From an uncultured Mucispirillum sp. (lineage in GTDB: Bacteria > Chrysiogenota > Deferribacteres > Deferribacterales > Mucispirillaceae), in contig CALUZC010000012.1 in the NCBI GenBank assembly GCA_944325215.1, forward strand, positions 1-64,000: a stretch of 64,000 nt of DNA, given 5' to 3'. A program made the translations under genes and the position numbers. This document shows, one piece after another, positions 420 to 64,000 of this stretch. A model generated the notes under the pieces. That model did no database searches. It was not told the origin of the DNA and saw nothing but the letters and a program-made list of their open reading frames with translations. Position 1 is the stretch's first letter. Each line of letters starts with the position of its first letter.

Positions 420-1073
420 TTAGAATCTATATCCAGCTTCAGCATATATTCTAAAACCTGATAAATCAACACCTCCAGGTGCTGTAATAGTATAATCTAA
501 ATTTACTCCTGCATATGCTTTTTTAAAATTATATTTTAAACCTAAAGCAGCAACATAACCAAAATATGCACCATTATAATCAAATACAACATCCTGCCTA
601 CTATAATGCTGTATAGTTTCTGATTTTGCAAAGGATATAACAGGTCCAGTTCCAAACCATGGAACAAAACCTGTTTCATCTTTTTTTCTTTCATATTGTA
701 TTATACCCATTATTTTTATATCAAACATATTTGATATGGTTGTATATTTAAAATAATCTTGCTCTTGTCCTTTCACATATGTATATCCTAAATCAGTGCT
801 TATTGCAAAAAATCTATTAAAATTAAATTTATATTTCAAAGCAGCACCACCACCAACAGCTCCATCTGATAAACCATAAGATACGCTAGTTGGAAAATAT
901 ACACCACCACTTACCCCTAATGTCATAGGGTAATCTTTGTAATTAAGCTTACCAATACTTTTTATTTCACGGTTAAATTCATCAGCAAATGATTCTTTCT
1001 TTTTAGGCTCTTCCTGTGCAGATACGATAAATGATGTAAAAATAAATAAAATACTAAATAATAATTTTTTCAT
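420..1073 (-). CDS. Small outer-membrane beta-barrel protein
   Basis: A 217-residue protein with an N-terminal signal peptide (cleavage likely after FIVSA), a short charged linker and then amphipathic strands typical of an eight-stranded OmpX/OmpW-size barrel. It ends in an aromatic residue (AEAGYRF), the usual outer-membrane assembly signal. The ligand or function is not identifiable. AAGGGG upstream of the ATG serves as ribosome binding site. The gene lies between the two copies of a direct repeat and is transcribed against them. Its promoter contains a nine-base C tract in the -35/-10 spacer, so expression may be phase variable. Confidence 0.8.
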   Translation of the reverse strand: MKKLLFSILFIFTSFIVSAQEEPKKKESFADEFNREIKSIGKLNYKDYPMTLGVSGGVYFPTSVSYGLSDGAVGGGAALKYKFNFNRFFAISTDLGYTYVKGQEQDYFKYTTISNMFDIKIMGIIQYERKKDETGFVPWFGTGPVISFAKSETIQHYSRQDVVFDYNGAYFGYVAALGLKYNFKKAYAGVNLDYTITAPGGVDLSGFRIYAEAGYRF

Positions 1074-1102: not shown

Positions 1103-1129
1103 ATTATATCATGGGGGGGGGAATGTCAA
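1103..1129 (-). promoter_or_regulatory. Promoter with C9 tract in its spacer
   Basis: On the minus strand TTGACA (1124-1129) and TATAAT (1103-1108) are both perfect consensus hexamers. They are separated by 15 bases made of TT, nine C and ATGA. The homopolymer occupies 1113-1121. The spacer is two bases shorter than the optimal 17, so slippage of the tract would alter promoter strength. The start codon is 30 bases downstream of the -10. Confidence 0.85.
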
Positions 1130-60794: not shown

Positions 60795-61667
60795 CTATGG
60801 TAAAGGTGCTTTATTCTTAAAATTATCCTCTCTAGCACCTTCTATTCCATATATAGCAGCATCAGCTTTTTCTCTGCTATCTGCTACTGGTTCATTTATA
60901 TCACCAACAGGATAGTAGTGGCATGTAGAGCATGAGCCATTAGGTTGATGAGTTACTCCATCATTAGTAACAATTAAACCATGTGGTGCTCTATGTGGTT
61001 TAGGCAGATTTGCATGGCATGACCAGCAGAAATTATGAGCTGGGTTATTATAACTGCTATCACCAACTTGTATTTTTTGTTTAAATACAATTTTAGAATG
61101 TGTTTGAGTAGTACATACTGCATTAGGGTCCTTAGCAGTATTACATGGTGGAGCAACTTGGTATGGTTTTGTATCCCTATCTACATATCTTGTATGGCAG
61201 TTTGTAGTGCAGTTACCAATTAAATCAGTATATTTTGAAATATCCTGGTGATATGAGTGTGGAAAACGAACAGAACCTTTAGTAGCGTTTGTGCCACCTA
61301 AACTTGGAACTACTTGTATGTTATCTTCCATAAAACCATGATTATGGTCTCTTTGAGTCCAGTCAAACCAGTTATTATGGTAACTATTATAGTATGCATC
61401 ACCTTTTCCAAAATAATCTTTTAAAAATGGGTGACCAAAAGTTCCATTATCATATGCAGCTGATAATGTTGGAAGCTGTGCCAAATAGGAATAATTTTGA
61501 GAATCGCCATCTCCAATATATGGTCCAGCTAATGTTGGTTGAACATCAGGGTTAGATAAAGAACCATCACCAGTAGTGATATTCTGCCCTTCTTCTGGTA
61601 AAGCAGAACAAGCTGCCATAAACATTACCATAGATAATGTTAAAAATATAGTTTTAAAAATTTTCAT
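60795..61667 (-). CDS. Triheme-type cytochrome lipoprotein
   Basis: A 290-residue lipoprotein (lipobox MFMAAC). The C-terminal half holds three haem motifs: one wide-spaced CTTNCH (CX3CH), then CWSCH and CSTCH (CXXCH), plus extra His (FPHSYHQ, HPFL) as possible axial ligands. It is a paralogue of the 61696 protein, with the CX3CH at a different position. Start 61667 is supported by GGGAGG. It is last in the barrel-cytochrome operon and likely carries electrons at the periplasmic or outer-membrane face. Confidence 0.85.
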   Translation of the reverse strand: MKIFKTIFLTLSMVMFMAACSALPEEGQNITTGDGSLSNPDVQPTLAGPYIGDGDSQNYSYLAQLPTLSAAYDNGTFGHPFLKDYFGKGDAYYNSYHNNWFDWTQRDHNHGFMEDNIQVVPSLGGTNATKGSVRFPHSYHQDISKYTDLIGNCTTNCHTRYVDRDTKPYQVAPPCNTAKDPNAVCTTQTHSKIVFKQKIQVGDSSYNNPAHNFCWSCHANLPKPHRAPHGLIVTNDGVTHQPNGSCSTCHYYPVGDINEPVADSREKADAAIYGIEGAREDNFKNKAPLP

Positions 61668-61695
61668 AGGTATTCCTCCCTTCATATTTTAATAT

Positions 61696-62214
61696 TTATT
61701 GCCCAGCTCTTATATTTTCAACTCTGTGGCAACTTGCACATTCATCTTGCTTTGGTGCATTATTTGGCTCTGGTATTTGGTTATGGCATGTAGTCCAGCA
61801 GAACTCATGTCCCATATTAGTATTAAGAGACTGCCCAGATATTTTTAAGTTATTAGCTGTTAATCTATTTTGTATAAAAGTATCACCTGCTTGAACATGA
61901 CAAGATGTGCAGCCTGAAATAAATATCTGTTGGTCACCACTTGTATTAACAAATATAGCATTCAGTAAAGTTTTTCTATGTATATCATGTGGAAAATAAA
62001 CACCTCTCATTGTCTGCTTATCTATAAAAAGTGACCAATGGTCTGCCAAATTAAAGTATGCCACACCTGAAGTCAGTGTAGGGTCATCAAATGGTATTGC
62101 AGGTTGTGATACATAACTAGGGTTGTTTTTATCATATAAATCTTGGTTTACATTACCATCAGCACAGGCAGATAATACTATAAAACCCATAAATGTAAAA
62201 ATTAGTTTTTTCAT
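61696..62214 (-). CDS. Triheme-type cytochrome lipoprotein
   Basis: A 172-residue lipoprotein (lipobox VLSAC). Haem motifs in order: CTSCH, CWTTCH (CX3CH) and CASCH; YFPHDIH supplies further His. It aligns with the C-terminal half of the 60795 protein over all three motifs. It is about half the size of that paralogue, which has an N-terminal extension. It presumably relays electrons between the pentahaem protein and the outer membrane. Confidence 0.85.
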   Translation of the reverse strand: MKKLIFTFMGFIVLSACADGNVNQDLYDKNNPSYVSQPAIPFDDPTLTSGVAYFNLADHWSLFIDKQTMRGVYFPHDIHRKTLLNAIFVNTSGDQQIFISGCTSCHVQAGDTFIQNRLTANNLKISGQSLNTNMGHEFCWTTCHNQIPEPNNAPKQDECASCHRVENIRAGQ

Positions 62215-62245: not shown

Positions 62246-62734
62246 TTATGGGTGCTGCAAACCAGATTTTGTGGTTGTAGGCCTTGTTCTATGGCATACA
62301 ATACAATTTTGTGCTGGTGTGCTTCTCCAGTTAGATGATGGTAACTGACAACTTGTCTGGCAGTGAAAACCTGCACTATTTATATCGCCAAAACCTGCTC
62401 TTGTATGGCTTAATGGAAATGCATTTTCATGGCAGGAATCACAGTAATCTTGTCTATGGCATGTTTGGCAGTATGTTTTATCTATCCTTGCCTGCATACC
62501 ATGTGTTCTATTAACAAAAGTAGCAGTATGGTTACGAGGTGGTGTATCCTCGTGGCAAGAAATACATTCATTTCTTTCTTCATGGCATGTAAGGCATTCT
62601 GCCTCATTTGCTTTTGCAGCCTGCCCATGTTGTTCAATCCAGTTTGTATTATGGTATGTTGGCTTTGTGCTGTCAACAGCATAAGCAACTGATACAACTA
62701 ATAAAAATATTATTAAAATAGGTAATTTCTTCAT
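62246..62734 (-). CDS. Multihaem c-type cytochrome
   Basis: A 162-residue exported protein with signal peptide (SVAYA). Five CXXCH motifs: CLTCH, CISCH, CQTCH, CDSCH and CIVCH. Between the fourth and fifth lies CQTSCQ, a CX3C pair followed by Gln, at the place where the two downstream proteins have CWTTCH or CWSCH; it may be a haem site with a changed ligand or a lost haem. Start 62734 has GGGAG upstream and lies 11 bases after the barrel gene. Confidence 0.88.
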   Translation of the reverse strand: MKKLPILIIFLLVVSVAYAVDSTKPTYHNTNWIEQHGQAAKANEAECLTCHEERNECISCHEDTPPRNHTATFVNRTHGMQARIDKTYCQTCHRQDYCDSCHENAFPLSHTRAGFGDINSAGFHCQTSCQLPSSNWRSTPAQNCIVCHRTRPTTTKSGLQHP

Positions 62735-62745
62735 ATTGTTACTCC

Positions 62746-64000
62746 CTACCACAAAAAGTTAACCCACATTTCAACAGTGTGAACATCTGGTTGTAAATCA
62801 GCATTTTTGAATAAATCTGCATATTCAAATACATACTCCAATTGTAATGCACACCATTCAACAGGTTTATAAATTGCACCAATATATGCTAAAGTGGTAT
62901 TTTCATTATTAACACGTTGATTAATAAAATCAAAATTATTAATCATGCCGTTCATTCTAATAGGACTATTTCTATATTGATAGTTTTGAACGTTTACACC
63001 AAGCCATGCTTCAAGCTGCTCTGTAAAAACTTGTGTCATTCTAAAACCACCAACAACCTGGGATATACCATTTTGATATTTTGTTTCAGGAACATTGTAG
63101 TAATCTACAATTAAACTAAGGTAGTTATTTCTATGAATAAGACCTACTAAGTCTATATTACCAAATACTCTGTGGTAATTTCTATCACCATATAATGTTT
63201 TAAAGTTAAATCTTCCTTCGTAACCAACACCAATTAATAGTTTATCAACTATTCCTTGTGTTATCTTTCCCCCCCCCATGATGTATTCACTTGAACCAAG
63301 TAAACCTTCATATAAGGATACGTATGTATTAATAGGGTCATTATTAATTGTAGCCTGCCCATTTACATAAAGAGAAATACCTGTTTTGCTGGCATGAATA
63401 TCAGAATCTATACCTGCTTCATACACTACAGCTTTACCTATTAAATCAGCTTCAGCATATATATTAGCAGCCATTGGGTTAAAACTCAGTGCCTGGTCAA
63501 GTCTTGCCCTTGCAACATGAGTATTTAAATTACCACCATCATCATGCATAAAATAGCTGTATGCAAGTTTAATACGAGTGCCGGAACTTTCCACTGGTAT
63601 TTCAATATTAGTACCAGCTACTTGAGTTTTTAAGTTACTATAATAGCTAACAGGTAAACCATAATAAACGTTCATATTAAAATATTGAGAAGGTGTTACT
63701 TTTATATTAGCACCATCAATTTTATATCCATCAATTTGAGCAAGATAAATTCTACCAAGCGAAATATCTGTTATTGGTATAACATTTTTAAATTCCATAT
63801 TACCCTGGTATATTCTAAAATCGCCATCAAGATTTTCTGCACTGCGAGTAAATTCATTATAAGAACGAGATGCGTAAAGACCATCATAAAATCTATGATA
63901 ATTTCTATCACCAATAGTTGGTGCATTATCATATGCCCCACGAACATTTAAATTTAACACAAATTCACCTTGACCAACCTGAACACCACTTAATCTTAAG
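62746..64000 (-). CDS. Outer-membrane beta-barrel of the cytochrome operon (5' end outside window)
   Basis: The frame runs from the window end, with no start codon needed inside it (SGVQVGQGEF continues into VLNLNVRGAYDNAP). About 417 residues are visible: repeated amphipathic strands, an aromatic C-terminus (MWVNFLW) and no haem motif. It is consistent with a porin that holds or passes electrons for the cytochromes downstream, in the manner of MtrB/PioB-type conduits, but homology is not proven. Nine consecutive G (63269-63277) encode MGGGK mid-barrel, a site prone to slippage; the frame is currently open. Confidence 0.82.
   Translation of the reverse strand, partial: LRLSGVQVGQGEFVLNLNVRGAYDNAPTIGDRNYHRFYDGLYASRSYNEFTRSAENLDGDFRIYQGNMEFKNVIPITDISLGRIYLAQIDGYKIDGANIKVTPSQYFNMNVYYGLPVSYYSNLKTQVAGTNIEIPVESSGTRIKLAYSYFMHDDGGNLNTHVARARLDQALSFNPMAANIYAEADLIGKAVVYEAGIDSDIHASKTGISLYVNGQATINNDPINTYVSLYEGLLGSSEYIMGGGKITQGIVDKLLIGVGYEGRFNFKTLYGDRNYHRVFGNIDLVGLIHRNNYLSLIVDYYNVPETKYQNGISQVVGGFRMTQVFTEQLEAWLGVNVQNYQYRNSPIRMNGMINNFDFINQRVNNENTTLAYIGAIYKPVEWCALQLEYVFEYADLFKNADLQPDVHTVEMWVNFLW
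63269..63277 (-). repeat. G9 homopolymer inside the barrel gene
   Basis: Nine G on the coding strand within ATG GGG GGG GGA AAG. A loss of one G gives TAA within a few codons, a gain gives TGA about 8 codons later. The 1113-1121 promoter tract has the same length and base. Confidence 0.95.

Follow-up and report, generated by a model that had tools for sequence, protein, structure and literature searches.

Probable poly-G contingency switch in a putative porin-cytochrome conduit gene of Mucispirillum

Poly-G contingency loci are already well known. In Neisseria promoters of the porA/opc type, a homopolymer lies between the −35 and −10 boxes and its length sets the promoter spacing, while the DmsEFAB and MtrCAB systems of Shewanella are porin-cytochrome conduits. 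Campylobacter jejuni NCTC11168 has 29 poly-G contingency loci, three of them intergenic (PMC4965091), and mismatch-repair genes are missing in Helicobacter bizzozeronii and other epsilon-proteobacteria (PMC3234257). The genome of the uncultured Mucispirillum sp. studied here, a bacterium of mouse-gut type, resembles those of Campylobacter and Helicobacter (PMC4965091, PMC3234257) in carrying about 30 tracts in a low-GC genome, with lengths of 8 to 11, in having in-gene tracts in glycan, restriction-modification and surface genes, and in the on/off differences found between strains. By contrast, it belongs to a different phylum, its MutS and MutL are intact, about a third of its tracts lie in promoter spacers (compared with the three intergenic loci of that C. 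jejuni strain), and its switches include an electron-conduit barrel and respiratory reductases. We consider it likely that the G9 tract within the barrel gene is a slipped-strand contingency switch of a putative porin-cytochrome conduit, and that the genome contains about 30 switches in all, which fall into two kinds.

The window analysed, that is, the whole stretch of 64,000 nucleotides, corresponds to bases 1-64000 of contig C12 (CALUZC010000012.1) of the source assembly (GCA_944325215.1, hereafter G000; 2.55 Mb in 67 contigs). Run lengths were counted over contigs C1-C12 (1.276 Mb, 30.3% GC), and tract-bearing stretches elsewhere were added. Over C1-C12, G/C runs are distributed bimodally, with nine runs of length six, one of seven, none of eight, 15 of nine, five of ten and one of eleven; the 21 runs of at least nine compare with about 0.09 predicted from base composition. 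A/T runs in the same contigs fall off smoothly, without a bump and with none longer than nine. Genome-wide, G000 holds 31 G/C runs of at least nine plus two of length eight, so the barrel G9 is an above-chance homopolymer in a tract-rich genome. Mucispirillum genomes that are at least 75% complete have 13-43 tracts of at least nine each (43 in the single-contig genome); the counts are 0-4 for the sister genus and 0-7 for most of the remaining Deferribacterales. The exceptions, G011, G037 and G024, belong to other genera, and their tracts of at least G9 number 64, 65 and 18, several of those in G037 and G024 being close to contig ends. The assemblies behind most of the tracts are drafts or derive from metagenomes and give one consensus length each, so that the differences in length reported below concern lineages and not rates. 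A plasmid search gave no match.

The barrel tract occupies positions 63269-63277, where the plus strand reads CCCCCCCCC and the G9 is on the coding minus strand. It lies in an outer-membrane-barrel-like gene (62746-64275 on C12, minus strand, leaving the window at 64000) whose open frame encodes 509 aa with zero in-frame stops, including a signal peptide and an aromatic C-terminus. The tract codons, ATG GGG GGG GGA AAG, specify Met-Gly-Gly-Gly before the lysine codon, and the tract would act as a translational on/off switch. Removal of one G yields ATG GGG GGG GAA AGA TAA and a predicted product of 337 aa, whereas addition of one G brings a stop after seven sense codons past the tract and a predicted product of 343 aa. 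The original prediction, made from the letters of the window, had placed the tract in the middle of the gene at exactly this position, with an open frame, a nearly immediate stop after loss of one base and a stop about eight codons on after gain of one, and it holds on each of these points. It had also associated the barrel with cytochromes, and here the association turned out stronger than claimed. The end of the barrel gene overlaps a gene (62246-62752, minus strand) for a pentahaem c-type cytochrome with five CxxCH motifs and a Cytochrome_C7 match slightly below the cut-off, which is followed by a small multihaem lipoprotein cytochrome (61696-62214, minus strand; two CxxCH and one CxxxCH) and by a multihaem lipoprotein (60795-61685, minus strand) that weakly resembles an MtrC/MtrF domain (PF22113, below cut-off at E=6.5e-4). 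Barrel homologues were found across Deferribacterales, and in 26 of the 26 examined a gene of 155-184 aa with 5-6 CxxCH motifs directly follows the barrel gene. Judged by the barrel protein, the closest named relatives are metagenome-assembled genomes titled Mucispirillum schaedleri SI.A35 (100% identity) and Candidatus M. faecigallinarum (85%). G000 has one copy of the barrel gene.

The barrel protein matched nothing in Pfam or NCBIfam, nor in PDB, which was searched both with its own sequence and with a profile of 24 rows; none of these searches linked it to MtrB, DmsF or PioB. An AlphaFold model from a two-row alignment reached a pLDDT of 31 and was not used. Its assignment as a probable outer-membrane barrel draws on its signal peptide, its composition, its aromatic C-terminus and the genes around it; together with its cytochromes it may work as an electron conduit. 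As in DmsEFAB and MtrCAB of Shewanella, a barrel-like gene stands beside multihaem cytochromes; unlike in Shewanella, the barrel has no sequence match to any known barrel family and its partner is pentahaem rather than decahaem. The molybdoenzyme and Fe-S subunit of a DmsEFAB-type operon are absent beside the window barrel.

If the tract is a switch, replication would add or drop a G and the frame would be lost; translation of the barrel would then halt after roughly two thirds of its length (337 or 343 of 509 aa), presumably leaving no barrel and possibly reducing translation of the overlapping cytochrome genes, until a second slip restored the frame. Candidate benefits are bet-hedging of surface electron transfer and variation of an exposed antigen or of a phage receptor. 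Among only five carrier genomes, no off allele or length variant of the barrel tract was seen, and a subpopulation lacking surface electron transfer is accordingly something that we infer.

Paralogues of the barrel, with about 60-65% identity, occur in operons of genomes G003, G004 and G006, which contain a molybdopterin oxidoreductase, a 4Fe-4S subunit, a TorD-type chaperone, the barrel and a pentahaem cytochrome. These operons thus add a molybdoenzyme, an Fe-S subunit and a chaperone to the conduit genes in a Shewanella-like manner. The nearest solved relatives of the oxidoreductase are DMSO reductases, and its genes (in operons L243-L246 and L248-L258) bear a G8-G10 tract, mostly right after the Tat signal and lipobox, a combination that differs from Shewanella. 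When on/off state is read by following the Tat frame, most copies are off, those on being one of four in G006, one of five in G003 and two of six in G004. The two barrel sites (see below) and the reductase tracts together imply that this electron-transfer family probably acquired a switch at least three times, and the independent switch sites within the barrel family suggest that these bacteria gamble on surface electron transfer. With about even confidence, we propose more broadly that Mucispirillum phase-varies extracellular respiration, poly-G tracts switching DMSO-reductase-like Tat-lipoproteins, each with its barrel and pentahaem cytochrome, and as a rule leaving one or two of the 4-6 copies on, and with the switch residing in the barrel in species with a stand-alone conduit.

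About half of the G000 tracts are in-gene. By Pfam, their hosts include a Type III DNA methylase beside its Res subunit, two GT2 glycosyltransferases, FdtA, a formyltransferase, methyltransferases, a sulfatase-fold gene, an EptA/B-like phosphoethanolamine transferase, a DUF6056 protein and a radical SAM enzyme; the Type III methylase, glycosyltransferase, methyltransferase and EptA-like genes are of types typical for contingency loci. Between G000 and G001, length differs at 8 of 15 clearly orthologous tracts; among the A/T runs of length 7-9 aligned alongside them, 5 of 38 differ (p=0.004). Judged by frame, the Type III mod methylase and sulfatase-fold genes read as on in G001 alone, and the DUF6056 and methyltransferase genes in G000 alone. 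That close relatives differ in tract length and in on/off state supports, with the bimodal excess of G9-G11, the contingency-locus control that had been anticipated, and in the proposed genome-wide check for tract enrichment the tracts turned up in genes for surface features, glycans and restriction-modification as well as ahead of lipoprotein genes. The predominance of glycan, lipoprotein and restriction-modification genes among those that would switch together fits a compatible variant of the switch explanation in which the barrel tract does switch, but for the benefit of surface antigen or phage-receptor variation and not of electron transfer. We regard this variant as possible though the less probable version, given that the paralogous operons switch the molybdoenzyme, an enzyme rather than the barrel, and that barrel and cytochrome are always paired.

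Comparison of barrel homologues bears on whether the tract could be a fixed Gly-Gly-Gly coding stretch whose GGG codons arose by chance and which does not switch. G000, G001 and G009 have the tract at the same site, whereas in G006 and G002 this first site reads GGGCGGTTTT and a G9 is found instead at a different site of the same gene. That the tract is nine long with an open frame in all five carriers (G000, G001 and G009, and G006 and G002 at the second site) is what a fixed stretch would predict. GGG, however, makes up 11.6% of Gly codons, and yet the GGG codons of the tract are retained within each carrier pair, in which 42-43% of four-fold sites differ; those of the second site are likewise kept between G006 and G002, most other GGG codons are lost within pairs, and reliable retention of GGG between species is confined to the tract codons. 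Several homologues, including all those from the sister genus, have no tract, and where the tract encodes its third Gly the tractless proteins have F, V or L, giving Gly-Gly-hydrophobic. Set beside the genome-wide bimodal excess of G/C runs, these observations make a fixed coding stretch unlikely and argue for a contingency switch.

The second kind of proposed switch consists of tracts between −35 and −10 boxes, where slippage would set the spacing to 15, 16 or 17 bp. One of these, TTGACA-TT-C9-ATGA-TATAAT, is in the window at 1103-1129 (minus strand; tract at 1113-1121), and 39 nt past its tract begins a gene (420-1073, minus strand) for a secreted protein of 217 aa that is weakly similar to the TP0733 family of outer-membrane-barrel-like proteins (NF047328, E=1.7e-4, far below cut-off). 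The original prediction had counted both long tracts of the window as falling in outer-membrane genes; this stands for the barrel tract, and the tract at 1113-1121, although genuine, sits in a promoter, with TTGACA and TATAAT 15 bp apart upstream of the gene, and not in the gene itself. Around 12 tracts of G000 have this placement and the same core, mostly 20-115 nt ahead of a gene. A search with the element pattern gave 67 matches, in Mucispirillum genomes and G011, against one for the reversed control, and none in the other 29 genomes searched, apart from one incomplete Mucispirillum. A 15-bp spacer is present in 47 of 65 distinct matches, though their flanks split the spacer differently, and the TG of an extended −10 in 49 of 65. 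In G000, 6 of 10 distinct genes behind the element have a lipobox; among background ORFs the figure is 40 of 1052 (p=9e-7, the lipobox pattern having been widened once before this count). The position of the tract is shared with the porA/opc-type promoters of Neisseria; the differences are that in Mucispirillum nearly the same 27-bp element stands ahead of many unrelated genes genus-wide (in all searched members of the genus but one), that its −10 box is of the extended TGn type and that its spacer measures 15 bp at C9.

MutS1 and MutL are full length and present in 19 of 19 genomes checked. Missing mismatch repair was therefore rejected as the cause of the tracts, in contrast to the Helicobacter case (PMC3234257), but intact MutS and MutL should also lower slippage, which counts against a switch; tracts may slip at a lower rate here than they do in Campylobacter. 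That the tracts merely reflect biased mutation or deficient repair and were not selected as switches, as their occurrence in many gene types and at some intergenic sites might indicate, is very improbable in view of these repair genes, the lack of an A/T run excess, the gap at 7-8 in the G/C runs, and the tight placement of tracts in promoter spacers and right after the reductase Tat signal and lipobox.

Full-text searches, mostly of non-subscription literature, found no report of phase variation in Mucispirillum or other Deferribacterota, and 'multiheme cytochrome' together with 'phase variation' was nearly absent from the texts searched; the main text of the M. schaedleri genome paper (PMC5285517) does not contain 'phase', 'homopolymer' or 'frameshift'. 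If the contingency switches proposed here are real, a core bacterium of gut mucus that is linked to inflammation would randomly change both the surface it presents and the electron acceptors it uses, through the mechanism with which Campylobacter and Neisseria vary antigens, contingency control would reach respiration, and one more phylum would join the known users of contingency loci. Single Mucispirillum genomes or gene-presence profiles would then misstate the capability of a population.

Some further features of the genome were observed. The barrel region (62746-64275, L073) is 99.4-99.6% identical between G000 and G001, compared with about 95-96% in the flanking alignments, and this higher identity makes a recent exchange possible. 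RCC1-repeat proteins are encoded by two of the genes behind promoter-spacer elements, the lipoprotein genes at C3:3182 (L045) and C20:17564 (L163) of G000. At C4:65850-65885 (L062), between genes of unknown kind, a C9 and a G9 face each other 18 bp apart and could form a hairpin. The tract of the Type III mod gene is a G11 at C19:21515-21525 (L162) in G000, where the gene is split beside an intact Res gene, and a G9 with an open frame in G001, which makes this locus a candidate phasevarion.
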